From a virus: a stretch of 22,565 bases of DNA. Where the stretch lies: positions 1-22,565 of IMG/VR virus record IMGVR_UViG_3300037153_000285; one strand, given 5' to 3'. A model generated the notes under the pieces. The model was not told where the DNA came from and did no database searches. It saw only the letters and a program-made list of their open reading frames with translations. Below, piece after piece: positions 1 through 21,799 of the stretch. The number at the start of each line of letters is the position of its first letter. Position 1 is the first letter of the stretch. A program made the position numbers and the translations under genes.

Positions 1-287
1 TGAATCCGCAGGAGTACCTGCAGCTGGCGCGGATCTACGGCCCTGCGCTCAACGACCTGCTGTCGTCGATGGGCCTGTCGATCTTCGTCACCAACCGCGT
101 CCCGGCGGGCAACGCCTACGTCGTCCAAGAGGGAACGGTCGGGCAGATGCGGGTCGAGCAGCCTCTGCAGACGACGCAGTGGTACGAGCAGGAGACGGAG
201 CGGTTCTGGACTCAGAGCAGCGTTCGGCCGCTCATGTTCATCGACAACCGCTGGGGCGTTCTCAAGTTCACGAACCTGGCCGGGTAA
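1..287 (+). CDS. Major capsid protein, C-terminal fragment (5' end outside window)
   Basis: The frame is open from the left edge (first full codon at base 3) to a TAA at 285-287, giving the last 94 residues of a longer protein. The fragment has the mixed alpha/beta character of the end of an HK97-fold capsid protein: a helical segment (EYLQLARIYGPALNDLLSS), then beta-rich text with VTNRVPAGNAYVV and a closing stretch ending RPLMFIDNRWGVLKFT. In capsid proteins the 'VP.G.ayvv..G.vg' type strand followed by 'RP.f.....WGV..FT' belongs to the axial domain. Its place directly ahead of small head proteins and upstream of neck genes fits. The N-terminal arm and E-loop are not visible, so the call rests on the C-terminus and on gene order. 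A different virion protein with a similar fold, such as an encapsulin-like shell protein, is the main alternative. Confidence 0.66.
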   Translation, partial: NPQEYLQLARIYGPALNDLLSSMGLSIFVTNRVPAGNAYVVQEGTVGQMRVEQPLQTTQWYEQETERFWTQSSVRPLMFIDNRWGVLKFTNLAG

Positions 288-818: not shown

Positions 819-1241
819 ATGGCCGACGAGTACAAAGCTCTCACCTTCATCAACCTGCCGTTCCTCGATGGCGGAGCGGGACGGCAATACTCACCGGGAT
901 CCATGATCTCTCGTAGCGACTTCGAAGAGTCTGTGGAACTGGGGGAGTCCGCAATCGGGGAATCGGAGTGGGAAGGTCAGACTTCAGCCGATGACATGAT
1001 CTCGCATCTGATCGAGTTCGGAAGTCTGAGCGAGGATCCGGACGCGGAACTTCATCCGGCGCATCGCCCGGTGGTACCCGGCGCGCCTACGATGGGTGGG
1101 CTCGTCGAGCAGGCCAAGTCGCTGGTAGCTCAGTACGAAGAAACCGGCGAGGAAGTTCCACCGGAACTTCAGGCGTTGGCAGACTCTCGGGCACTGCTGG
1201 GCGCCAGCGACGAGGCCGCAGGGGGTGAAGAGAATGCATGA
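819..1241 (+). CDS. Hypothetical acidic head-module protein (140 aa)
   Basis: This is a real gene by its packing: it starts 3 bases after the preceding stop and its own stop overlaps the next gene by a few bases. GGTAGG upstream is a moderate ribosome site. The protein is strongly acidic, with an opening beta segment (KALTFINLPFLDGG), a middle rich in Glu/Asp/Ser, and an alanine-rich helix near the C-terminus (EQAKSLVAQYEETGEEVPP). No motif tells me its function. Together with the previous gene it forms a pair of acidic proteins between the capsid and a putative capsid-associated protein, so head completion or decoration is the most reasonable guess. Confidence 0.76.
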   Translation: MADEYKALTFINLPFLDGGAGRQYSPGSMISRSDFEESVELGESAIGESEWEGQTSADDMISHLIEFGSLSEDPDAELHPAHRPVVPGAPTMGGLVEQAKSLVAQYEETGEEVPPELQALADSRALLGASDEAAGGEENA

Positions 1242-1872
1242 AACCCTCTGGATCTGCGAGAAGTGGAGCGAGGAAGCTTGCGACTTTGCTCGCAGGCGTC
1301 TCGACCGCGCTGGGATCAGTCACATTCCTGGATCGCTGAAGCAGGTCGGCAACATCGTCGTTCCGACCATCATGGCCATCAAGGATGGGATCTCGTCGCA
1401 GGCTCTGCGCGAGTTCGTCGGCCCGCCCGAGGAGGCCATCGAGATCGCTGGCAACCTTCTGCTGAACGAAGGGATCCAGCGTCTCCAGGACATGACGATG
1501 ATCGCCACGGTCGTCTCGAACCAGGTGGCGGCCAACCCGTGGTCGAACGCCAACGCCTTCACGGGCGTGGGCGACTCGAACGCGGCTGAGGCGGCGACGC
1601 AGACTGAACTGTCGGCTGCGACCAACCGCTTCTACAAGGCGATGAACGCGGCGTACCCGTCGCGTGCGTCACAGACCGTCTCGTTCCAGAGCGACTTCAC
1701 TGGAACCGAGGCCAACTACGTCTGGGCCGAGTGGACAATCGCGGCTAGCGCCACGACAGCCTCGGGCGCAGGGTTCCTCAACGGCACCGTCAACCTCAAC
1801 CGCAAGGTTGCGGCGCTCGGTACGAAGTCGTCAGGAACGTGGACGCTCACGAGCCAGATCACCCTCTCGTGA
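1234..1872 (+). CDS. Capsid-adjacent virion protein with C-terminal beta domain
   Basis: The frame could start at a GTG at 1225, but the ATG at 1234 has the purine-rich GGGGGTGAAG directly upstream and is preferred, giving 212 aa. The N-terminal half is helical (an amphipathic region around 'ALREFVGPPEEAIEIAGN' and 'LNEGIQRLQDMTMIATVVS'). The C-terminal half, from about residue 125, is a beta-rich domain: 'VSFQSDFTGTEANYVWAEW', then 'LNRKVAALGTKSSGTWTLT' and a final strand. I recall this 'W.EW.....LNRKV..LGTK..G.WTLT' domain from phage proteins encoded next to capsid genes, especially in actinobacteriophages, but its function is not established to my knowledge. Decoration or fibre-attachment roles are both possible. 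The strong hairpin just after the stop could separate its expression from the fibre cassette. Confidence 0.72.
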   Translation: MHETLWICEKWSEEACDFARRRLDRAGISHIPGSLKQVGNIVVPTIMAIKDGISSQALREFVGPPEEAIEIAGNLLLNEGIQRLQDMTMIATVVSNQVAANPWSNANAFTGVGDSNAAEAATQTELSAATNRFYKAMNAAYPSRASQTVSFQSDFTGTEANYVWAEWTIAASATTASGAGFLNGTVNLNRKVAALGTKSSGTWTLTSQITLS

Positions 1873-1922: not shown

Positions 1923-2696
1923 ATGGGTACCACGCCTAATCTCGGCTTGCGCTATCCGGAAGAGACGGACATTCCGGATGTCGCTACCGACATCAAAGAA
2001 CTTGCGCTCGATGTAGACTCAGCCGTCTCTGCTGCGCCGGGTACGCCGCTGGGCGCGTATCTTGAATGGCCGTGGGCGGCGAGTCAGATTCCTACTTGGT
2101 CGCTCCTTCCCTATAATCAACTACTGACTGCCGCTGCCTATCCGGCGTTGCAGGCGATTGCTGACGGGGCGGGCCGTCCCTACGGTGGCTCGGCGGGCGT
2201 CAACTTCAATATGCCAGACAAGCGAGGGCGCGTTTCGGTCGGCAAGGATGATATGGGCGGTACGGCCGCGAACCGGATCACGACCGCAGTCTCGGGCGCG
2301 GACGGCAAGACGCTCGGGGCGGTATTCGGCGCGGAGGGCATCACACTGACGACTGCCCATCTTCCCGCTCATGCTCACGCTCATACTCTTGTTCTGCCAA
2401 CACATGCGCATGCGCATTCCCTGACCCTCCCTGCTCACGCTCACAACGCCATTGGCACTACCAACTCACCCGCTGGCGATAACGGTAGCATCGGTGTTCA
2501 GGGATCCGGATACAGCAGCAATCAGTGGGCCGCGATTTCGAACAACACTTCTTCGCCCGCTATCGCGGGTGCGGTTGGTAACAACTCGTCCGCGCCCGCG
2601 ATCTCTGGGAGTATTAGTAATAGCACTGGTGGCGATGGCGCGCACCAGAACACACAGCCGTCGATCATCGTGAACGTTTTTATGCGGGTGACCTAG
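1923..2696 (+). CDS. Tail fibre protein with phage collar domain and HxH metal-site repeats
   Basis: 257-aa fibre-type protein. The N-terminus (TTPNLGLRYPEETDIPDVATDI) is the short motif often used to attach phage fibres. Residues about 40-110 match the phage tail collar domain: 'GAYLEWPW', then 'PYNQLLTAAAYPAL' and 'FNMPDKRGRVSVGKD', the hallmark 'PD.RGR...G.D'. Residues about 145-178 hold three tandem units rich in HxH (LPAHAHAHTLV, LPTHAHAHSLT, LPAHAHN), and the C-terminus is Gly/Ser/Asn-rich, ending in a hydrophobic strand. In T4 gp37 and related trimeric fibres, HxH motifs from three chains hold metal ions along the needle axis, so this should be a trimeric receptor-binding needle. An in-frame TGA at 1914 makes ATG 1923 the first possible ATG. 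It has no Shine-Dalgarno directly upstream; the nearest purine tract is on the far side of the 1887-1913 hairpin. Confidence 0.85.
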   Translation: MGTTPNLGLRYPEETDIPDVATDIKELALDVDSAVSAAPGTPLGAYLEWPWAASQIPTWSLLPYNQLLTAAAYPALQAIADGAGRPYGGSAGVNFNMPDKRGRVSVGKDDMGGTAANRITTAVSGADGKTLGAVFGAEGITLTTAHLPAHAHAHTLVLPTHAHAHSLTLPAHAHNAIGTTNSPAGDNGSIGVQGSGYSSNQWAAISNNTSSPAIAGAVGNNSSAPAISGSISNSTGGDGAHQNTQPSIIVNVFMRVT

Positions 2697-2995
2697 TGCC
2701 TGCCGTTCGGATCTCGCCCATCGAGAAGCTGCGGCGGATCTGGACTCCGGGACGCGAGATCGAAGAGGTTGTAGCCGAGCTAGAGCCTCGGACTGAACTC
2801 GACAGCATCATCCGTGACACGCTCTTCTCGATTCTCATGCAGCACGGGCCGCAGCGGATCAACCTCGGCAGCGATGTCGAGCCGTTCATCATCAGCGGTA
2901 CGTTGCGCTGGGAGGTCGTTCACGGCCCCGGCCCAGATTCGATGCCGGAGCTACGTCGGCGCGAAATGACCATCTGGGTCGAGAATGGCGACTAA
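2696..2995 (+). CDS. Hypothetical protein (99 aa) in the fibre cassette
   Basis: The GTG start shares a base with the TAG of the fibre gene, and a weak GGGTGA lies upstream, so translation is probably coupled. The stop is inside the next gene (11-base overlap). The protein has an N-terminal helical part with charged residues (PIEKLRRIWTPGREIEEVV; ELDSIIRDTLFSILMQHG) and a C-terminal beta part (PFIISGTLRWEVVHG; RRREMTIWVEN). I do not recognise the family. Small proteins sandwiched between fibre genes are often fibre chaperones or attachment adaptors, but nothing in the sequence proves that here. Confidence 0.75.
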   Translation: MPAVRISPIEKLRRIWTPGREIEEVVAELEPRTELDSIIRDTLFSILMQHGPQRINLGSDVEPFIISGTLRWEVVHGPGPDSMPELRRREMTIWVENGD

Positions 2996-5900
2996 GAACT
3001 TCCGCGTCACTGGGACGAACGTCCCGATTGACAACAACCTCGGCCGTCTAGACGAGTCCGACCAAACTGCTGCGAACCGCGCGGACGGCTGGACTCAGGG
3101 CACGAAGGCTGCGGCCCAGATGTCCCCCTTCGACGCCGGTACCAAGCAGGCGTCCACGACTTTCACCGCGACCGTGCAGCCCGCCTCATTTGTCGATGGT
3201 TCGAACGCTACTGCGAATGCCTTCAAGACGATGTACCCGCTCAACGGGACGTTCGACGTTGGGAACTGGGTTTTCACGTTCGCAGTTCGCGCGGCCTCTT
3301 CGGCTACGGGGCAATGCGGCCGGATTCGGCTCCGGGTATTCAAGAGTACGAGCTACAATGGATCGGTAAGCCCGACTGAACTGACGGCCGCGACTCAGAT
3401 AGGGACGACGACTACCGCTCTGTCCACGAGCGCAGATCGCACTTCGGTCGTTACTTGGGCTCCAGGCACGACGATAGTCCTCAATAACGAGTTCTTGTTC
3501 TTCGTCGTCGCTTGGGAGGTTACGACCGCCGCGACGAACGCGAACGCCGATGTATTGATCCGCTCGGGGCAGTCGGCGGGCGGCTCGTTCCTGACGACGC
3601 CGAACTACACGCCGGTCGCTAACCCAATTTCGAATCTCAAAGATTCGTTCGTGTCGTCCTTCAATACGTTGGTCTGGACGGATTCCTACTTAGCGTCGTG
3701 GGACTCGGGCAATGGTGGTCAACTCGCTCTCCAATGTACGACTGGATATGGCTATATCGACACCGGGGCTCAGGCCAAGTCGTACGACCTCACCGGTGGC
3801 TCCCTGATTGCCAAGGTGACGCCGCCGCCGACGGGCAGCGGCTCGCGTGAGATGTTCATGGAGATCAGTCGGATCGGAACTTGGGGGTCGATCCGCGACG
3901 GTGTATCCCTGTACGTCAGCGGTGGCAATCTTGGTGCCTCTCGCAGACTAGCCGGGTCGGTCAGCGGATCGGCTACTGGGATCGCGTTCGATCCGGTGAA
4001 TCATAAGTGGTGGCGTATCCGGGAGTCAGGCGGAACGATCTACTGCGACACCTCGCCGGACGGAATCACCTGGAACAATTACTGGTCAACGGCGTCTGGG
4101 TTCGACGTTAGCGCTATTCATATCGATTTTTCTTGCGGATACTACGGCACTGAAACGGCGTCGAACGGGTATGTCGATGAGATCAACGTTCCTCCGAGCG
4201 CCTCGACCCCCATCTCCAGCAGCGATTCGGGAGTGGGCGGTGATTGGGGAGTTCCGACCTACAAGACCGAATACTTCTACGACACATTCGACACGTCCGT
4301 CGATCTCGCAAAGTGGAACGGATCTTCGTCCGATCCAGTTTGGGACGGCGGCGGACAGCGCTGCCGAATGCCCTGCGTCAGTAGCTACGCGACACTCGCT
4401 ACCGCGAACGACCGGCCGCTGCTCAACCTAACGGGGTCGTTCTTCATGGCGAAGGTGACGCCGCCGCCGGTCGGGACGAGTAGCCGCGAAATGACGATGG
4501 AGCTTCGGAATGTAGATGATAACACAAACAAGTACATGTTCTACTGGCAACAGGGGAACTTGTACATTCGCCGCTACCTTGCCGGAGCGGTCAGTGGTGA
4601 GAAGATCATTTCCTACAGCGCCTCAACCCAATGGTGGAGAGTTCGGGAGTCTGGCGGCACGATCTACTTTGATACGTCGCCCGACGGCGGCACTTGGACG
4701 AACCAGCTGACGACTGCGCCCGGATTCGATATCACTCGCTGTCGCTACGTCTTCCTCTGCGGATACTACGCTACTGAGTCGGCGGCGGATGGATACATCG
4801 ACAACATTAACGTCGTTCCTCCAATCTCCGTCTCCGGGACGGATACGAATGGAACGGTGACCGAGAGCGCCTCGGTCGTATTCAAGGCGACTGTCACTGA
4901 TACAGGAACTAGCTCCGAGACGAGCGCTCCAGCTAGCGCCCTGGCCGGGACTGATACCGGAACAGATTCAGAGTCTGCTGCGGTTCAAGTCTCGGCGTCT
5001 GACGCGAACGGCACGACGACCGAAGCGGCGTCCTTCCTGTATGCTCCGACGGATAGCGACAGCGGATCCGGAACGGACACCGCCTCATATCAGCAGGGCG
5101 GCGTTCAATTCGATACGGGCACCGGATCCGATAACGGCTCGCTGAACGTCAACGTACTGGCTGCAGACCCGTATGTCCGAACGTACGCAGATCTCCCGAA
5201 TGCGTTTGCGACCTATGCGGACATCCCGGCCAACGTCGATATCTATGCGCACCTGCCGTTCGTTCCCGTCTATCCGCTCACCACTGAAGATGCGACGGTT
5301 ACAGCCCTCATCCTGGCGGCGGATACCAACGGAGCGGTTGCCGAAGTAGCGACTATCGCCTCGACAGCGGCCGACGTAGGTACCAGCGTCGAGAGTACGG
5401 CCATCGTTGCCAAGATCACGGCGATAGCCGACTCTACCACGCTGGTCGATGAGACGGCCGCGCCGGTCTTCAAGGTCACGGTCACCGACGCAGGTACGGG
5501 CGTTGATGCGGTAGTTACTCGCACGGCCGCGCTCACGGGCACGGACAACAACGGAGCCGTTACCGAGACTCAATCGCTCGTCGCCAAGATATCGGACGAG
5601 GGTGCTCAGGGAGCAACTTACGATTCCGCGACACTCGTCGCCAAGTATACACAGACGGACGGAAGTGGGCCGACAGACGAGACGGCGGTCGCACAGTTCG
5701 TCAAGGTCAACGTTACGGACACGAATGGCGCGACGACCGAGACGATCTCTCTGCGGCTGTACGCATTTGATGCGAGTACCGGGACTGACAACGCGATCCT
5801 CGTCGCCAAGTTCATCGACACCGATGCCGGTAGCTCCTTCGAATTTGCCCTTTCGCCCGGTGGCGCGATCCCCGGATTCGATACGGGGGTCGGCACTGAG

Positions 5901-7421
5901 TTTGCCGTACCGACCGTTCAACAGTCCGCCGCCGACGTCAATGGGGCTGTTACCGAGACACCGGTACTCAAGGACCAGGCGCTCGATACTGACGCAGGCG
6001 CGATAGCCGAGGCCAATGTACTCGTCGTCAAGATCACGACGACGGACAGCGGCGTCGGAAGCGATATCACGAACCTGCGTCGTCTCCTCGTCCCGGTTAC
6101 GGACGCGAACGGGGCGACAACCGAAACCCAGTCGGCCCAATTCCATATCGACGGATTCGAGTCGAATGGAACGGTCACGGAGTCGGCATCGGTCGTTCGC
6201 GGGCTCATTCCTGCGTTCGACTCGGGGGCCATCACCGAAGTCGGCACTGTCAACATTATCCTGCAGACGATTGTCGTCTCCGACTCGGGTCAGATTAGTG
6301 AATTCTCGGAGTATCGCCTGTTCCTGGATCCGACGACGGACGAAAATGCAGAGGCGGTCGAAAATGCTTACGCTTCAATCACCATCGCTGCGTCCGAGGT
6401 CGTCAAGTCCTTTGCCAAGGAATCCTTCCTCATTGGAGTATTCCCGGCCGAAGGTGATGCTGGGCAATCGACCGAAGTTGCCTCTGCTAAGTTTCGAGCT
6501 ACTGTTTCTGATTCTGGCGTGGTCAGTGAATCCACTTCCCTCTACAAGCATCTCTTCTTCACTACTTCGGACTCAGGGGGATTGGTCGAGGCGGCGATTC
6601 CCGATGCCGTCCTCAGCGCCACTGACCGGAACAAGCCCACCTTTGAGAATGCGCAGTCGCCCGGTGGCCAGGTGTCTGACTTCGATCTCGGTCAGGGCTC
6701 TGAGGCCACCCACCTCACGGCGCGACTCGCAGCAGCGGACGTCAGCGGCCCCGTTTCTGAATCCGCAGGCTCCGCAAATAAGGGCGGTGCTCTCGACCTC
6801 GGCACGGGCACCGAGAGCGCCGCCCTCCACGTCGCAGTTTCTGCGTCTGATAGCGGGGTGGCGAGCGAGCGAACCTACCTACACCAGGGCAAGTCCAGTT
6901 TCGACCTGGGGGAGGGACACGAGTCTGCCTCGCTCGCCGCTCGACTGCCCTCCTACTCGGACGATGGAACGGGATCCGATGGGGAGTTCATCCGCGTATT
7001 CGTTTCGGGTGGTATAGAGGTCGGGCGGGCTACCGAGGTCTTTGCTCTCGTAAGTAAAATTTTCGTGACGGATTCGGGGGTCGTGTTCGACAAAGCCGAC
7101 TCCTTTGTGTACGCGACCGTCTCGGACAGCGGTACCGGCCTTGAATATGAGAGTGGAATCGGACTCCGAGTGTTCGACAGTGGCTCCGGTTCTGACGCCG
7201 AAACGCTCGTCGCCCTCTTCATTCAGAAGGACCTTGGATCGGGGGCCGAAGGGCAGCACCGTGACCCGCCGCTCGTGCTCTTTACTGACCAGCCGGGAGG
7301 GAGTATTCTCGACCCGGCGATGGGTCACATCTCTAACTCCCCAGCGGTCGGAACGGTCGAACGTCCGTTCGTGCCGAAAGGGACGTTCCGATGGCCCACT
7401 CAAGGGAGGATCGTCAAATGA
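2985..7421 (+). CDS. Giant repeat-containing virion fibre or adhesin with duplicated lectin-like domains (1478 aa)
   Basis: This is the largest gene in the window. Residues 1-215 form a beta-rich head domain (strands such as WVFTFAVRAASS and EFLFFVVAWEV). Residues about 220-400 and 429-610 are two copies of a concanavalin/LamG-like beta-sandwich. Both carry 'AKVTPPP..G..SREM', 'RRLAGSVSG'/'RRYLAGAVSG', 'WWR.RESGGTIY.DTSPDG' and a closing 'CGYY..E...GY.D.INV'. From about residue 616 to 1420 the protein is built of roughly 40 units of 16-20 residues around a core D-x-G-x-x-(T/S)-E-(S/T/A)-x-(S/A)-L, for example TDTNGTVTESASV and SDSGVVSESTSL. Residues about 728-766 interrupt the repeats with Tyr-Ala-(Asp/His)-(Leu/Ile)-Pro motifs. 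There is no signal peptide or membrane segment. A long surface fibre or adhesin that binds glycans through the paired sandwiches is inferred. Its location between capsid and neck genes leaves it open whether it sits on the head, neck or tail. Confidence 0.83.
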   Translation: MATKNFRVTGTNVPIDNNLGRLDESDQTAANRADGWTQGTKAAAQMSPFDAGTKQASTTFTATVQPASFVDGSNATANAFKTMYPLNGTFDVGNWVFTFAVRAASSATGQCGRIRLRVFKSTSYNGSVSPTELTAATQIGTTTTALSTSADRTSVVTWAPGTTIVLNNEFLFFVVAWEVTTAATNANADVLIRSGQSAGGSFLTTPNYTPVANPISNLKDSFVSSFNTLVWTDSYLASWDSGNGGQLALQCTTGYGYIDTGAQAKSYDLTGGSLIAKVTPPPTGSGSREMFMEISRIGTWGSIRDGVSLYVSGGNLGASRRLAGSVSGSATGIAFDPVNHKWWRIRESGGTIYCDTSPDGITWNNYWSTASGFDVSAIHIDFSCGYYGTETASNGYVDEINVPPSASTPISSSDSGVGGDWGVPTYKTEYFYDTFDTSVDLAKWNGSSSDPVWDGGGQRCRMPCVSSYATLATANDRPLLNLTGSFFMAKVTPPPVGTSSREMTMELRNVDDNTNKYMFYWQQGNLYIRRYLAGAVSGEKIISYSASTQWWRVRESGGTIYFDTSPDGGTWTNQLTTAPGFDITRCRYVFLCGYYATESAADGYIDNINVVPPISVSGTDTNGTVTESASVVFKATVTDTGTSSETSAPASALAGTDTGTDSESAAVQVSASDANGTTTEAASFLYAPTDSDSGSGTDTASYQQGGVQFDTGTGSDNGSLNVNVLAADPYVRTYADLPNAFATYADIPANVDIYAHLPFVPVYPLTTEDATVTALILAADTNGAVAEVATIASTAADVGTSVESTAIVAKITAIADSTTLVDETAAPVFKVTVTDAGTGVDAVVTRTAALTGTDNNGAVTETQSLVAKISDEGAQGATYDSATLVAKYTQTDGSGPTDETAVAQFVKVNVTDTNGATTETISLRLYAFDASTGTDNAILVAKFIDTDAGSSFEFALSPGGAIPGFDTGVGTEFAVPTVQQSAADVNGAVTETPVLKDQALDTDAGAIAEANVLVVKITTTDSGVGSDITNLRRLLVPVTDANGATTETQSAQFHIDGFESNGTVTESASVVRGLIPAFDSGAITEVGTVNIILQTIVVSDSGQISEFSEYRLFLDPTTDENAEAVENAYASITIAASEVVKSFAKESFLIGVFPAEGDAGQSTEVASAKFRATVSDSGVVSESTSLYKHLFFTTSDSGGLVEAAIPDAVLSATDRNKPTFENAQSPGGQVSDFDLGQGSEATHLTARLAAADVSGPVSESAGSANKGGALDLGTGTESAALHVAVSASDSGVASERTYLHQGKSSFDLGEGHESASLAARLPSYSDDGTGSDGEFIRVFVSGGIEVGRATEVFALVSKIFVTDSGVVFDKADSFVYATVSDSGTGLEYESGIGLRVFDSGSGSDAETLVALFIQKDLGSGAEGQHRDPPLVLFTDQPGGSILDPAMGHISNSPAVGTVERPFVPKGTFRWPTQGRIVK
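3645..4815 (+). repeat. Internal duplication of a LamG-like domain within the giant fibre gene
   Basis: Two halves (about 3645-4190 and 4270-4815) encode domains with the same order of motifs. They still share exact DNA stretches, such as AAGGTGACGCCGCCGCCG at 3813-3830 and again at 4452-4469. Most other codons have diverged, so this is an old duplication maintained by selection and not a fresh copy. Confidence 0.8.
4830..7260 (+). repeat. About 40 degenerate 16-20-residue repeats in the giant fibre gene
   Basis: The translated region repeats an Asp-x-Gly ... Glu-x-Ala/Ser-x-Leu pattern throughout: TDANGTTTEAAS, TDNNGAVTETQSLVAK, TDTNGATTETISL, FDSGAITEVGTV, SDSGVVSESTSL, FDLGTGTES-like units and VSDSGTGLEYES. 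DNA identity between units is low, so these are protein-level repeats and not recent tandem copies. The spacing varies by a few residues and one non-repeat insert occurs at about 5166-5282. The regular spacing suggests an elongated all-beta rod or stalk. Confidence 0.82.
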
Positions 7422-8140
7422 CCGTCGTCTCGTTCACTGACTACACTCCTGTGCCGAGGTTCGACAATGTTCCTTGGTCGAATGTTCTGATTGATGAAAG
7501 CGATTCAGAGTTTGGTGTCTGGACTCTGATCGACACCCAGACCCTGGATCCTCTGGACGCCGATCCGTCCGATCCGATGCCCCGCTCCTTCACGACCGTC
7601 AATGCGACGCTGGACAATGGTTGGTACAAGGTTTCGTTCGCAGACGCGTACAACAACGTGATCGAGATGGTACCCACGTTCAATGGTGAGCCCATTGAGT
7701 GGATTCCGACTCTGCCGGACGTAGCAGGGGTCATCCTGATCCGAACGCGCGACGAGAACGGCACGTTCGCTCGAACGTTCAACGACAACACGATCCCGAC
7801 CGACGAAGACGTGCGCCGCCTGATCGAAGATGCTGTGAACGATATCCGTCCGATGATCGGCTCGGATATTCCCGAGGATCTGATTCAGGAAGCGCAGCAC
7901 GTTACGGCGATCCGGACGGCGATGTACATCGAGTTGACCTACTTTGGAAATGAAGTGGCTCAGAATCGCTCGGTGTACCCGCAGCTCAAAGTTCTGTTCG
8001 ATGAGAAGATCAAGAACCTGCAGGCGGCGATCATCGCAGAGGAATCTGGGGCTAGTTCTCTCGATGAGGTAACGGGAGCGGGTGGGTATCCCGCCTACTC
8101 CTATCCGCCTTCCGACTGCCTGTATGCGAGGCCATTCTAA
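7418..8140 (+). CDS. Head-tail connector-like protein with an extra N-terminal beta domain
   Basis: The ATG at 7418 overlaps the preceding stop as ATGA and is preceded at ideal spacing by AAGGGAGGA (7402-7410). A second in-frame ATG at 7391 has a weaker site. The 240-aa product has two parts. Residues about 10-115 look like a beta-sandwich domain (FGVWTLIDTQTLDPLD; FTTVNATLDNGWYKVSFADA). Residues about 118-215 are helical and resemble head-tail connector/adaptor proteins of the HK97 gp6 or SPP1 gp15 type: TDEDVRRLIEDAVNDIRPMI, then a helix with 'AQHVTAIRTAMYIELTYFGN' and a Leu-rich helix with 'LKVLFDEKIKNLQAAIIAEE'. Its place immediately upstream of a gp10-like protein, a terminator-like protein and the sheath supports a neck role. 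The N-terminal domain is not part of ordinary connectors and may dock fibres. Confidence 0.68.
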   Translation: MTVVSFTDYTPVPRFDNVPWSNVLIDESDSEFGVWTLIDTQTLDPLDADPSDPMPRSFTTVNATLDNGWYKVSFADAYNNVIEMVPTFNGEPIEWIPTLPDVAGVILIRTRDENGTFARTFNDNTIPTDEDVRRLIEDAVNDIRPMIGSDIPEDLIQEAQHVTAIRTAMYIELTYFGNEVAQNRSVYPQLKVLFDEKIKNLQAAIIAEESGASSLDEVTGAGGYPAYSYPPSDCLYARPF

Positions 8141-8631
8141 TGCCTGCGTCTACTTTCATCAACATCGAGATGCTCGGGGCCGAGGAGACGAGGCGCTGGT
8201 TTCTGCGTGGAGAAATGGCTATCGAGCACACCGAACCTGCCATGCAGAAGGTGGCCGACGATATGATGTATTGTATCGGAGTCAACTTCTCCAGCGAGGG
8301 ACGGCGTGGCGGCGGTAGCTGGGCACATCTGAGTGAACAGCAAGTCAAGAGGAAGGCGGCGAGGGGGCAGCACCCAGAAATCCTGATTGGATGGGGAGCG
8401 CTGCACGACTCGGTGACTCAGCGCGGCGACCCGGACCAGGAACTAGAGGTCACCGACGAGGAAGTCAATCTTGGATCGTCGCTGGACTATGCCGGTACTC
8501 ACCAGTACGGAATGGGTCACATTCCGGCGCGACCCTATCTTGAGTTTGTTGCCGGTGACTACCGGCGTTGGGCGCAGATAATCGAGGATCACGTCATCGA
8601 GGCGATGGGTCACACGGGACGGATCGGATGA
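8140..8631 (+). CDS. Phage virion morphogenesis/tail completion protein (Mu gpG or HK97 gp10-like)
   Basis: The start overlaps the previous stop (TAATG) and no good ribosome site is seen, so it is probably translated by coupling. The 163-aa sequence has the layout of the virion morphogenesis family. An N-terminal helix (TEPAMQKVADDMMYCIGVNF) precedes a Gly/Trp loop (GGGSWAHLSEQQVKRK), followed by the diagnostic 'ILIGWGALHDSVT' and 'NLGSSLDYAGTHQYGM', and finally 'IPARPYLEF' with a C-terminal helix. In that family these are the 'L..tG.L..Si......v.iGs...YA..hq.G......pARPfl' positions. These proteins act at the head-tail joining or tail completion stage. The position between the connector-like and terminator-like genes agrees. 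Confidence 0.85.
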   Translation: MPASTFINIEMLGAEETRRWFLRGEMAIEHTEPAMQKVADDMMYCIGVNFSSEGRRGGGSWAHLSEQQVKRKAARGQHPEILIGWGALHDSVTQRGDPDQELEVTDEEVNLGSSLDYAGTHQYGMGHIPARPYLEFVAGDYRRWAQIIEDHVIEAMGHTGRIG

Positions 8632-9273: not shown

Positions 9274-9480
9274 ATGCCGTCAGCATCGAAGCCGACGAAG
9301 TATCGCTACATCGGATCCCACGCAGCCGTTCTGGAAGGCGGGGCAGCGGTCGGTCCAGGCGACTACGTGAGTATCGATCCGGCGAACATGACCGGAGTCA
9401 ACCAGCAGATGCTCGATGACGGAGTTCTGATCGACGCGAGCGGGGTCAAGGAACCTGCGGCCAGTAAGGAGGAGGAGTGA
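9274..9480 (+). CDS. Small hypothetical protein (68 aa) before the sheath gene
   Basis: A very strong ribosome site (GGAGGGAGG, 9261-9269) precedes the ATG at 9274. Its TGA overlaps the sheath GTG start as GTGA. The product starts with a basic patch (ASKPTKYRYIG), continues as a probable small beta-barrel (SHAAVLEGGAAVGPGDYVSI) and ends in a Lys/Glu-rich tail (KEPAASKEEE). Small proteins of this kind between neck and tail tube genes are common in phages, but I cannot name a function. The strong translation signal suggests that it is made in quantity and may be a virion component. Confidence 0.76.
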   Translation: MPSASKPTKYRYIGSHAAVLEGGAAVGPGDYVSIDPANMTGVNQQMLDDGVLIDASGVKEPAASKEEE

Positions 9481-10925
9481 GCACTGTTCTCATCCGGCCG
9501 GGAGTCAACGTAACGCTGCGGCCGTCGCCGCCGTCACGTAGTCAACCGACCGATACCGGCGTCTGGTTCGTCACGGGTCTGGCGGATTCCGGCCCAACGG
9601 ATCCGACCCTGATCCAGAGCATCTCGGATTTCACGCGGATCTTTGGTCCGCGCCAGACGTACTCGATCCTGTACGACGCACTGGACACGTACTTCCGTGA
9701 GGGCGGCGCGCACGCCTACGTCGGCAGAGTAGTCGGACCTGGCGCATCCGTGGCCAATCTGGACCTGCTCGATTCGGGCAGTGCAGTCTCTCTCACCGCC
9801 TCGGCCATCGGGCCGGGAACGAGCGGCAACAACATCAAGGTCGGAGTCCGGGCGGGAACTCAGGGTGGCTACTTCGTCCTGTTCGTTCAGGACGGAACTG
9901 GTACCGAAGTGGAGACGAGTCCGGATCTCTTCGATCAGGGAGCGGCAATTCTCTGGGCCCAGAACTCCAACTACGTCCGGATCTCCGCAGGAGTCTCCGC
10001 GAACGATCCTGCCGTGGTCGGGGCGACGGCACTCAGTGGCGGAAATGACGACCGTGGCAATATCACGGACAACGAGTGGCAGGAGGCCCTGGATGGGTTC
10101 CCTGCGGATCTCGGCCCTGGACAGGTCAGCGCACCTGGACGCACTTCGGACATCGGCCATCAGCAGTTGGTCGATCACGCCGGTACACATCGGCGGGTCG
10201 CCATTCTGGACGCTCCGGACACCGGCACGGTCACGACCCTGCTCGCGTCGGCCATCGGCGCTCGGACGGGAAACCAGAAGTTCGCGGCGATGTTCTGGCC
10301 CTGGCTGATTGTTCCGGGTATCGTTCTCGGCTCTCGGCGGGTCGTGCCTCCGTCCGCGTTCGTGGCAGGAAACCTCTCGCGCAACGACTCCGGTGGCCTC
10401 GGAGCGGATCAGGCGGCTGCGGGTGACTACGGAGTCTCCCTGTTCACGGCCGACCTGACGCAGGCGGCACTTTCGGACACGGTTCGGATGCAGGTGAACG
10501 CGGGCGGCGTGGACGTCATCCGACTCGCCTATGGCACTTTCCGCACGTATGGGTGGCGGTCGCTGTCCGATCCGAACGCAGAGGCTCAGTGGCTCAACTT
10601 CGGTAACGCTCGCCTCTACATGAGCATCGCGGCGAATGCTCAGGCGATTGCAGAAGGGTTCATGTTCGACAAGATCGACGGGCAGGGCAAGACGATCAGC
10701 GCGTTCAACGGCGCGCTCTCGGGTCTGCTCAAGACGTACTGGGATAACGGTGACCTCTACGGAGTGTCTGCCACGGACGCGTTCTTTGTGGACACGGGAT
10801 CCCAGGTCAACACCCCGGCAACTATCGCCAACCACGAACTCCACGCAGTTCTGAACGTCTGCATGAGCGAGTTCGCCGAGATGGTTCAAATCGAGATCTT
10901 CAAGAAGCCGATCACGGGGGTGTGA
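9477..10925 (+). CDS. Contractile tail sheath protein
   Basis: The 482-aa product is a tail sheath protein, which polymerises round the inner tube and contracts to drive it through the host envelope. The GTG start follows AAGGAGG (9466-9472). Recognisable features are the N-terminal 'RPGVNVTLRP' with a sheath-type 'FVTGLADSGPTDPTLIQSIS' and 'FTRIFGPRQTYSILYDAL', followed by 'YFREGGAHAYVGRVVG'. The variable middle domain includes 'GVDVIRLAYGTFRTYGW' and 'WLNFGNARLYMSIAANAQ'. The C-terminal domain closes with 'ELHAVLNVCMSEFAEMVQI' and 'IFKKP'. Length fits the family (about 350-700 aa). The tube gene follows at once, the usual order in myoviruses. This gene is the main evidence for a contractile tail. 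Confidence 0.95.
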   Translation: MSTVLIRPGVNVTLRPSPPSRSQPTDTGVWFVTGLADSGPTDPTLIQSISDFTRIFGPRQTYSILYDALDTYFREGGAHAYVGRVVGPGASVANLDLLDSGSAVSLTASAIGPGTSGNNIKVGVRAGTQGGYFVLFVQDGTGTEVETSPDLFDQGAAILWAQNSNYVRISAGVSANDPAVVGATALSGGNDDRGNITDNEWQEALDGFPADLGPGQVSAPGRTSDIGHQQLVDHAGTHRRVAILDAPDTGTVTTLLASAIGARTGNQKFAAMFWPWLIVPGIVLGSRRVVPPSAFVAGNLSRNDSGGLGADQAAAGDYGVSLFTADLTQAALSDTVRMQVNAGGVDVIRLAYGTFRTYGWRSLSDPNAEAQWLNFGNARLYMSIAANAQAIAEGFMFDKIDGQGKTISAFNGALSGLLKTYWDNGDLYGVSATDAFFVDTGSQVNTPATIANHELHAVLNVCMSEFAEMVQIEIFKKPITGV

Positions 10926-20214: not shown

Positions 20215-21141
20215 ATGCTAACCACAACGAGACGGGGGATCTCCTATCCGGATCCAAACCGCCTGGATCGCGCGGATATCGCCCTGCACATCGGCAATGT
20301 CGCTACTGCGGCCGACGCCGACGTTCTGTTCAACCAGGGTCTGGATGCCGACCGGCTCGCCGCGACACATCAGCCAGGTGGCGGTAGATTCTGGTGGACG
20401 ACGGATTCGAAGCTGCTTTGGTACGACGACGGAACTGTTTGGAGTTCAGTCGCGCCCACGTCCGCGACCGCAGGGCCGCTGGCGTCACGGCCCGCAGCCA
20501 ACTCCTTGACCGCGGGATCGTCCTACTTCGCCACTGATCAGGTCGCGCAGTTCGTGACCGACGGCACGACCTGGACTCGCTGCACGGTTCCGGCTGGGAC
20601 TACCGTCGATTGGTTCAAGCCGGATGGAGCGCCGCCCGTCGGCTGGGTGCTCTACGACGGTACCAACCTTCCTGGTTCGACGGGCATCTATGCTGATCTC
20701 TACGCGCACCTGGGAAATTCACTCACGAAGCCGGACACGCGCGGGCGCCATACGGTCGGCCTTGGGTCGCACGCGGACGTGAACTCAATCGGGCTCAACG
20801 ATGGAGTGGCACTCGCTAACCGGACTCCGAAGCATAACAGTTCGGTGGGCGGCTTGACGCTTCCGGCGCATAGCCACACGGTTTCGGATCCCGGTCATAG
20901 CCACTCTATGGGGCCGCCCGCTCCCACGGCTCTGGTGAATACGGGAAGCCCCTGGTCAATCGTCACCGGCTCCGGAGGCTGGAACAGCGCCTCTCATACT
21001 CACACTATCAATACAGCATATACTGGCATCTCAATTAGTGGTGGGGGCGGTGGTGCACTCAACGGCCAGGTCGGCCCCGGCGGCACCCGTCCGATAGACT
21101 CCGGGGCGTACATCGTGTGTGCGAAGATCGGGAAACTGTGA
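20215..21141 (+). CDS. Tail fibre protein with collar domain (second copy)
   Basis: A strong GGGAGG (20206-20211) precedes the ATG at 20215. The 308-aa product starts like other phage fibres (TTTRRGISYPDPNRLDRADI) and has a small repeat-like beta part (GGRFWWTTDSKLLWYDDGTV). Residues about 135-185 form a collar domain (TVDWFKPDGAPPVGWVLYDG ... KPDTRGRHTVGLG). HxH motifs follow (LPAHSHTVSDPGHSHSMG and later SHTHTIN), and the end is Gly-rich with 'RPIDSGAYIVCAKIGKL'. In related trimeric fibres such histidines hold metal ions on the three-fold axis. Position directly after gpI is the normal place for a host-recognition fibre. It shares its domain plan with the fibre at 1923-2696 but is clearly different in sequence. 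Confidence 0.9.
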   Translation: MLTTTRRGISYPDPNRLDRADIALHIGNVATAADADVLFNQGLDADRLAATHQPGGGRFWWTTDSKLLWYDDGTVWSSVAPTSATAGPLASRPAANSLTAGSSYFATDQVAQFVTDGTTWTRCTVPAGTTVDWFKPDGAPPVGWVLYDGTNLPGSTGIYADLYAHLGNSLTKPDTRGRHTVGLGSHADVNSIGLNDGVALANRTPKHNSSVGGLTLPAHSHTVSDPGHSHSMGPPAPTALVNTGSPWSIVTGSGGWNSASHTHTINTAYTGISISGGGGGALNGQVGPGGTRPIDSGAYIVCAKIGKL

Positions 21142-21378
21142 ATGTTGCCTCTGGCTATCGATTGGAGCCCCGAGCTAATACTTGCGCTAGCAGGTTTGGC
21201 CACGGCCATCGGTGGCATAGCTACGTCGATAACCGGGGTCGTGATGAACAGGCGAGCGATGAAGGATGAGACGACTAAGGAGCTAGAGGATAAGCTCCGC
21301 AAGACGAGGGCGGAAGCAGAGAAGTATGCCGAGGAGCTACACGAGTTGAGAATGAAGGAACTGTCAGATGAAGATTAG
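21142..21378 (+). CDS. Small single-span membrane protein, possible holin-like
   Basis: 78-aa product beginning immediately after the fibre stop. There is one hydrophobic segment (about residues 10-33, [20 protein letters not shown]) and then a charged helix (about 40-78) with heptad-like Lys/Glu spacing ([20 protein letters not shown]), suggesting a coiled coil. This resembles small membrane proteins often found at the end of the tail module in actinobacteriophages, sometimes annotated as holin or 'membrane protein'. With only one membrane segment and no endolysin next to it, a lysis role is a guess. Its stop overlaps the next start by 11 bases, so the two proteins may be made and used together. 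Confidence 0.8.
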
Positions 21379-21799
21379 CACAAAGCGGTTAGCCATTGTC
21401 ACGACGGTCGCGTCGGGAGTTCTGTTCGTAGCGGCTGGCGGGTTCGGAGCCGCCGCCATCCTCAAGTCGCAGCAACAGGTTCCGTCGAAGACTGTCACTG
21501 TCGATGTGGGTACTGGAACGCCGGGGCCACCCGGCCCCAAGGGAGATACCGGCCCCGCTGGGCCCGCTGGGCCAGCCGGTCAGAAAGGAGACAAGGGCGA
21601 CCCTGGGCCTGCTGGAGCCGCTGGACCCAAAGGGGATACCGGGCCTGCGGGGCCGAAGGGAGATGCGGGAGCCGCAGGCCCGCCTGGGCCTCCCGGCCCC
21701 GCAGGGTCTACTGAGTGTCCGGCCGGTTCGACGTTCGGTAAGCTAGTCATCAACGCCCCGAAGGGGCAAGTTGCTATCTATGCCTGCATTGTAGACTAG
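21368..21799 (+). CDS. Membrane-anchored collagen-like protein
   Basis: AAGGAA precedes the ATG at 21368 within the previous gene. The 143-aa protein has a basic N-terminus (MKISTKR) and one hydrophobic segment (about residues 8-31), a signal anchor or signal peptide. Residues about 49-114 are 22 consecutive Gly-X-Y triplets, many with Pro at X and [19 protein letters not shown]-type charge pairs that stabilise collagen trimers. The C-terminal 29 residues ([18 protein letters not shown] ... YACIVD) hold two cysteines and may be a trimerising or disulphide-linked knob. I recall this knob from several actinobacteriophages, with no known function. If exported, the protein could form a trimeric stalk on the host surface late in infection; if cleaved, it could be a virion part. 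Confidence 0.86.

Follow-up and report, generated by a model that had tools for sequence, protein, structure and literature searches.

The window, as the whole stretch of DNA analyzed is called here, is a 22.6-kb IMG/VR record (22,565 nucleotides, 59% GC) from a contractile-tailed soil phage. It contains a large fiber-like gene, which is listed here with the assigned genes around it.

3..287, + strand: C terminus of the major capsid protein, 5′ end outside the window (phrog_1650 major head protein, E 8.8e-16)
1225..1872, + strand: phrog_23653 protein (PHROG match, E 3.8e-37)
1923..2696, + strand: short fiber protein with a tail-collar-like domain, upstream of the fiber gene (phrog_8763/8469)
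2985..7421, + strand: fiber protein, whole gene (ORF translation, 1478 aa)
7418..8140, + strand: next gene, probable head-tail adaptor by position (listed ORF start, 7391)
8140..8631, + strand: Neck1/tail completion protein (phrog_26, E 1.1e-18; PF05069)
9477..10925, + strand: tail sheath of a contractile tail (phrog_23, E 4e-30)

The gene order is capsid, two genes without an assigned role, phrog_23653, collar-domain fiber, a small gene, the 1478-aa fiber, the probable adaptor, Neck1 and sheath. The sheath and baseplate J proteins are ∼31% and ∼27% identical, respectively, to those of Gordonia, Brevibacterium and Arthrobacter myophages. Relatives of the gene that follows the fiber begin with MTVVSF, and the ATG of that start gives a 4-bp overlap with the fiber stop codon. 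In L052, L169 and L137, the last a related myophage, these relatives lie directly 3′ of a repeat gene or a lectin gene. No significant match to the product was found in PHROG profiles, and its reading as a probable head-tail adaptor comes from gene position. The Collar (PF07484) match of the short upstream fiber protein fell below the curated Pfam cut-off. This protein of the head-neck interval and a second short fiber protein at the baseplate end (20215–21141) both match phrog_8469, and BLASTP between the two gave no match. A collagen-like protein with G-P-P/G-P-K repeats and an N-terminal hydrophobic segment is encoded at 21368–21799, adjoining a holin-like gene.

From its N to its C terminus, the fiber protein comprises an N-terminal region, two domains of ConA-like lectin fold, a run of some 40 acidic repeats and a conserved C-terminal segment.

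2985..3605, + strand: N-terminal region, residues 1–207 (AF2 pLDDT ∼24)
3606..4196, + strand: ConA-like lectin domain 1, residues ∼208–404, predicted (phrog_14065, E 3.9e-26; AF2 pLDDT 67–88)
4263..4823, + strand: ConA-like lectin domain 2, residues ∼427–613, predicted (VIA-align to 3d6e_B)
4842..7259, + strand: stalk of ∼40 acidic repeats, D-x-G-x-x-(T/S)-E-x-A-x-L, period 18–19, residues 620–1425
5157..5288, + strand: non-acidic island TYADLP/TYADIP/IYAHLP inside the stalk, residues ∼725–768 (from sequence)
7260..7418, + strand: conserved C-terminal segment, last ∼54 residues, possible anchor

Relatives of residues 1–207 were found only in L003 and L004, two near-identical phages, and the C-terminal segment only in these two and in L168, which also has an element similar to the short triple-repeat island that interrupts the acidic array. 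The AF2 model, built on an alignment of only nine sequences, is usable only at residues 212–403 and 430–610, where pLDDT is mostly ∼60–88. Over the N terminus and the repeats pLDDT is ∼20–35, and because so few sequences were aligned, such values neither show nor exclude disorder.

Within the usable part, the first lectin domain (residues 211–403) aligned with the GH43 xylosidase 7k1r_D at a VIA-align Z of 16.1, and the second (residues 426–613) with the Bacillus glucanase 3d6e_B at a Z of 18.2 (rmsd 2.5, 169 aligned). Foldseek matches of the window model reached E values down to 7e-6, and a search of the lectin profile against PDB sequences gave nothing convincing. For both sandwiches, the predicted ConA-like β-sandwich fold is well supported by the models. 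The GH16 signature E-x-D-x-E is incomplete in the window, where E-M-F-M-E and E-M-T-M-E lack the Asp; this is a sequence comparison rather than a residue-level structural equivalence. The second Glu of the signature is Gln in the Hiyaavirus relatives. Given the incomplete signature and this replacement, the ConA-like domains are read as binding rather than cutting and are probably non-catalytic.

The repeats occupy residues 620–1425, in which 33 strict D-x-(x)-G...(D/E) anchors are spaced 16–21 residues apart. Some gaps between anchors are 35–39 residues, which fits one degenerate unit in between and hence a total of ∼40 units. Composition-preserving shuffles (n = 2000) contained 3.8 ± 1.7 anchors, with a maximum of 9, and the motif D[STAVL][GN]x(1-4)E was observed 23 times versus 0.9 expected. 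Over its 811 residues the repeat stretch has a net charge of −76, and Ala, Ser, Thr, Gly and acidic residues are abundant in it; in many units the G or the second acid is replaced. The observation in an earlier note on this DNA is thereby confirmed. A 1478-aa ORF with some 40 acidic repeats does lie in the head-neck interval, between the capsid C terminus and Neck1, and is twice as long as the tape measure ORF (745 aa). The two lectin-like sandwiches proposed there agree with the models; its β-rich head corresponds to residues 1–207, for which AF2 gave a pLDDT of ∼24. Its statement that the protein is no standard tail fiber is matched by the lack of any tail-fiber PHROG or Pfam match, and that it has no enzymatic motif holds in the sense of the incomplete GH16 signature.

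To what extent the repeats form a regular structure was judged from hydrophobic alternation after the acidic turn. A first test over 10 positions, with Ala not counted as hydrophobic, was not significant. A test over 8 positions with Ala counted, a post hoc choice for the window family, gave 0.234 for the window alone, where the null reached 0.219 at most. Across the 962 units of the 81 arrays of other phages, which had not been used in choosing the test apart from a position profile seen earlier, the same test gave 0.189 versus a null of 0.000 ± 0.011. This pattern supports one predicted amphipathic β-strand per repeat unit and counts against a free linker. Alternatively, the lectins could be tethered by an acidic linker that is flexible and disordered and lacks a regular fold, which would be consistent with the AF2 model of the window repeats (pLDDT ∼30, almost no helix), with their amino acid composition and with the flexible capsid fibers of phage 7-7-1, for which the gene is not known (PMC12796354). 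Such a linker is nonetheless unlikely, since neither strict 18–19 spacing nor an alternating hydrophobic pattern is expected of it. In a relative, each canonical repeat unit is modeled with a strand, if only at a pLDDT of 53, and the nine aligned rows explain the low AF2 score of the window equally well, the N terminus also being poorly modeled.

The relative in question, L107, was modeled with one strand per 18 residues at low confidence, and its repeat model aligned at a Z of ∼20 with the β-helices of SufB/D, with Foldseek E values above 0.5. A β-solenoid stalk, resting as it does on this low-confidence model of a relative, may be taken as a lead, not a result. The rod or β-solenoid of the earlier note thus stands in part: the amphipathic-strand pattern and the model of L107 favor it, and the window repeats themselves remain at the low pLDDT given above. 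When canonical repeats were compared with PDB sequences, only 9e5c matched (E 6.5e-6), a protein named as a LIM zinc-binding domain protein; this match is suspected to be compositional and was rejected. An RTX-like calcium-binding β-roll, in which calcium would set the length or switch folding, is suggested by the high acidic charge and by the D-x-G-x-G-x-(D/E) turn, which would resemble calcium loops. This is quite doubtful, as the nonapeptide features (period 9, GGxGxDxLx) are absent from repeats with a period of 18–19, no Pfam calcium-repeat match was found, and G or the second acid is lost from many window units. Any role of calcium would be inferred from the turn and the charge.

The acidic repeat is not confined to the window. 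A search of IMG/VR with a DNA pattern for two neighboring D-T-G-x-G-x-(D/E) units found at least 120 stretches, and among the matches listed, 81 non-redundant arrays were kept after filtering and removal of duplicates. Unit spacing in the arrays peaks at 18 and 19. Cultured carriers include the Rhodococcus phages Madraxi, REQ1, Jflix2 and Shagrat, mycobacteriophage Patience (gp38) and many other mycobacteriophage minor tail proteins. With a profile trained only on the units of other phages, nine window units scored above 3 bits, versus an average of 0.035 and a maximum of 1 in shuffles; the full-sequence score of the window was −0.8. By this profile, the window units are classed as divergent members of the acidic DTG repeat family. 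No match in Pfam or NCBIfam fits the acidic repeat, and PHROGs catches parts of repeat proteins under phrog_1696 "major tail protein" or families of unassigned function. Without a Pfam or NCBIfam match, the stalk repeat appears to be undescribed; the protein itself would belong to a known class, the fiber-type adhesins of head or neck. The same DNA pattern had no match in plasmids, and a DTNG-type double pattern none in viral contigs; a literature search with the string DTGSG returned nothing relevant. Twenty-nine matches in bacterial genomes contained no phage-like array on ORF inspection and motif count and were judged to be chance. Weak TPR, ARM and DUF matches of repeat relatives were below curated cut-offs and were set aside; one repeat relative carries a real fn3 domain. 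Four neighbor genes of repeat loci matched Zot-type families, and the low-count loci with such neighbors may encode filamentous-phage linkers; no conclusion here draws on them.

Among the genes adjoining repeat genes, phrog_23653 was the most frequent family (17 of 109). A profile search of whole loci found it in 42 of the 81 array loci versus 2 of 40 lectin-only control loci (odds ratio 20; Fisher p 9e-8, which is optimistic in that phages of one lineage are not independent). It is always on the same strand as the array in these 42 loci, upstream of it in 35, and was present in 13 of 16 whole records searched. In the window it lies 1.1 kb upstream of the fiber gene, and in REQ1, Jflix2, Shagrat and Madraxi the repeat gene and the phrog_23653 gene are both present. 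The pairing occurs in unlike phages, which speaks against mere descent as its source. Comparison of phrog_23653 with the PDB gave only a weak match (26de_W, E 0.14). In Shagrat (L246), gp4 and gp5 are adjoining repeat-stalk proteins with unlike N-terminal heads and similar shafts and C termini, encoded directly after the phrog_23653 gene. Perhaps the acidic 18–19-residue repeat is a new stalk fold that serves as a standard adhesin spacer across tail types, in a two-component module with phrog_23653 as docking or assembly partner; this wider proposal is tentative.

Relatives of the fiber indicate how it is put together. L003 and L004, from one metagenome (79% and 81% identity), and L168, from another, keep the open frame and the repeats, and no indication of an artifact was seen. 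DNA identity to L003 and L004 is ∼92%–93%, followed by no alignable match over 6290–7255 and ∼75% downstream; for L004, 93% identity extends to ∼6290 and ∼75% begins after 7255. A recombination join inside the stalk, at ∼6290–7255, is likely from this comparison. In L003 a third lectin is inserted among the repeats, and in L109 and L173 a lectin sits between repeats; the repeat thus behaves as a modular spacer. In L137, a LamG-type gene (a reading of the sequence, with weak PHROG support) and a repeat gene are separate neighbors in the capsid-neck interval. That lectin and repeats are fused in the window and separate there suggests that they work jointly. Further repeat sequences of ∼19–21 residues follow the same lectin in L166, L169 and L170. 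Lectin heads and repeat stalks therefore appear, as judged from these arrangements, to be exchanged between phages. The differing repeat families behind one lectin domain (L166, L169 and L170; Hiyaavirus gp13 in L005 and L006) may adopt a common fold although their sequences are unrelated.

Adhesins mounted on the head or neck have been described for a few phages and archaeal viruses, and it is hard to recognize the genes that encode them. We consider it reasonably likely that the protein is a structural adhesin of an actinobacterial-type myophage, built into the head or neck and carrying lectins on a repeat stalk. Two putative non-catalytic ConA-like lectins near the N terminus (three in one relative) would bind surface polysaccharide; the ∼40 tandem units of 18–19 residues, each made of an acidic turn and then an amphipathic β-strand, would form the stalk; and the conserved C-terminal segment, the N-terminal region or both would anchor the fiber at capsid or neck. 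The C terminus is suggested as the anchor, as N termini vary and C termini are short across relatives. In this way the phage would reversibly capture the host, or a host polymer, before the baseplate engages. We infer the presence of the protein in the virion, its attachment to head or neck rather than tail and any oligomeric state. The whisker-like adhesin of the earlier note is supported to that extent, its gene position recurring in Hiyaavirus gp13 and L137 and its location on the virion being read from gene position alone. The interpretation given there is in this respect, as for the rod, partly supported.

The position of the gene between capsid and neck genes, its 4-bp overlap with the next gene and the confidently modeled lectin fold count in favor of the adhesin at head or neck. 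The main rival is a tail fiber or minor tail protein whose gene sits in the head-neck interval but whose product is assembled on the baseplate or tail. The repeat proteins of Rhodococcus phages and mycobacteriophages are encoded among minor tail genes, and phrog_23653 directly follows baseplate genes in SP-15 and LIS04 (L244 and L245; Thornevirus phages of Bacillus and Listeria); attachment to the head or neck thus does not follow from the repeat or its partner. Annotators have also labeled the Hiyaa and Galactica products "minor tail protein." A tail location is nevertheless rather improbable, because capsid genes and connector genes flank the gene in the window, in L137 and in Hiyaavirus, and the baseplate end of the window has its own separate fiber and collagen-like genes (20215–21799). 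Alternatively, the protein could decorate the capsid surface with the main role of binding a polymer of the environment, for instance a polysaccharide of cell walls or soil, rather than a specific receptor. Head proteins that bind glycans exist (PMC12494034), the lectin module is common among phage contigs, and closely related phages of one sample carry either two or three lectins. A stalk of ∼40 units seems longer than decoration would need, and we regard this role as unlikely. For the favored head or neck adhesin, the turrets of HFTV1 (PMC12494034) and the neck fibers of A-1(L) (PMC10966104) are precedents, and phage 7-7-1 offers another in capsid fibers that contact flagella first (PMC12796354), the structure of which is, according to its paper, still not known (PMC12796354).

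The recurrent repeat with its partner gene is a more general and testable result than a single protein. A repeat that has no Pfam or NCBIfam match, together with a conserved partner gene, provides a sequence handle for candidate fibers in unannotated phages, and this handle extends to mycobacteriophages whose "minor tail proteins" carry the acidic repeat. Fused or separate lectin and stalk, and differing arrays on the same lectins, suggest that phages swap stalk and head modules.

Among known systems, the capsid turrets of HFTV1 are head-mounted with a proposed carbohydrate-binding module (PMC12494034), as the window fiber would be with its lectins, and the HFTV1 turret head protein gp31 (8QPG) was among the Foldseek matches of the window model (E 4e-4). 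HFTV1 is, however, an archaeal virus, and gp31 is a trimer with a deacetylase-like domain on a separate base protein and has no long repeat stalk. The neck fiber of A-1(L), gp82-gp81-gp80, is closer in that it belongs to a myophage and has a long stalk ending in a distal carbohydrate-binding module (PMC10966104), but its stalk consists of many copies of a separate protein, as beads, whereas in the window one chain carries tandem repeats. The A-1(L) module is reported not to bind the host (PMC10966104), so that a lectin on a neck fiber need not be a receptor binder. A whisker of the T4 fibritin type is attached at the neck and has a trimeric coiled-coil shaft; the model of the window repeats has almost no helix, but at a pLDDT of ∼30. 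Mycobacteriophage minor tail proteins (Patience gp38; Fishburne gp22 and relatives) share D(S/T)GxGxD repeats of similar period, but in Patience gp38 the repeats are N-terminal to a glycine-rich domain and the gene comes after those for the tape measure and further minor tail proteins. In the Rhodococcus equi phages (Madraxi gp8, REQ1 Orf64, Jflix2 gp6, Shagrat gp4/gp5), acidic DTGxGTE-type repeats come after an N-terminal β-rich domain and a phrog_23653 gene is nearby, as in the window; these are siphophages, with the gene immediately 5′ of terminase, close to minor tail genes, and with other N and C termini. The closest sequence family is phrog_14065, gp13 of the Streptomyces Hiyaavirus phages Keanu, Hiyaa and Galactica, and the best stretch of the window match covers only profile positions 464–627 of 1152, the lectin part. 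The Hiyaavirus phages have a non-contractile-tail gene set with no sheath annotated, and gp13 has its own N terminus and basic or neutral repeats (LGxAxxxxTAHxLxxxK); with the acidic repeat model the Keanu protein scored below zero, with no unit above 3 bits. Like the window protein, gp13, annotated as a hypothetical or minor tail protein, carries a sequence-related ConA-like lectin followed by a long array of ∼20-residue repeats and is encoded between the major capsid protein and the head-to-tail adaptor.
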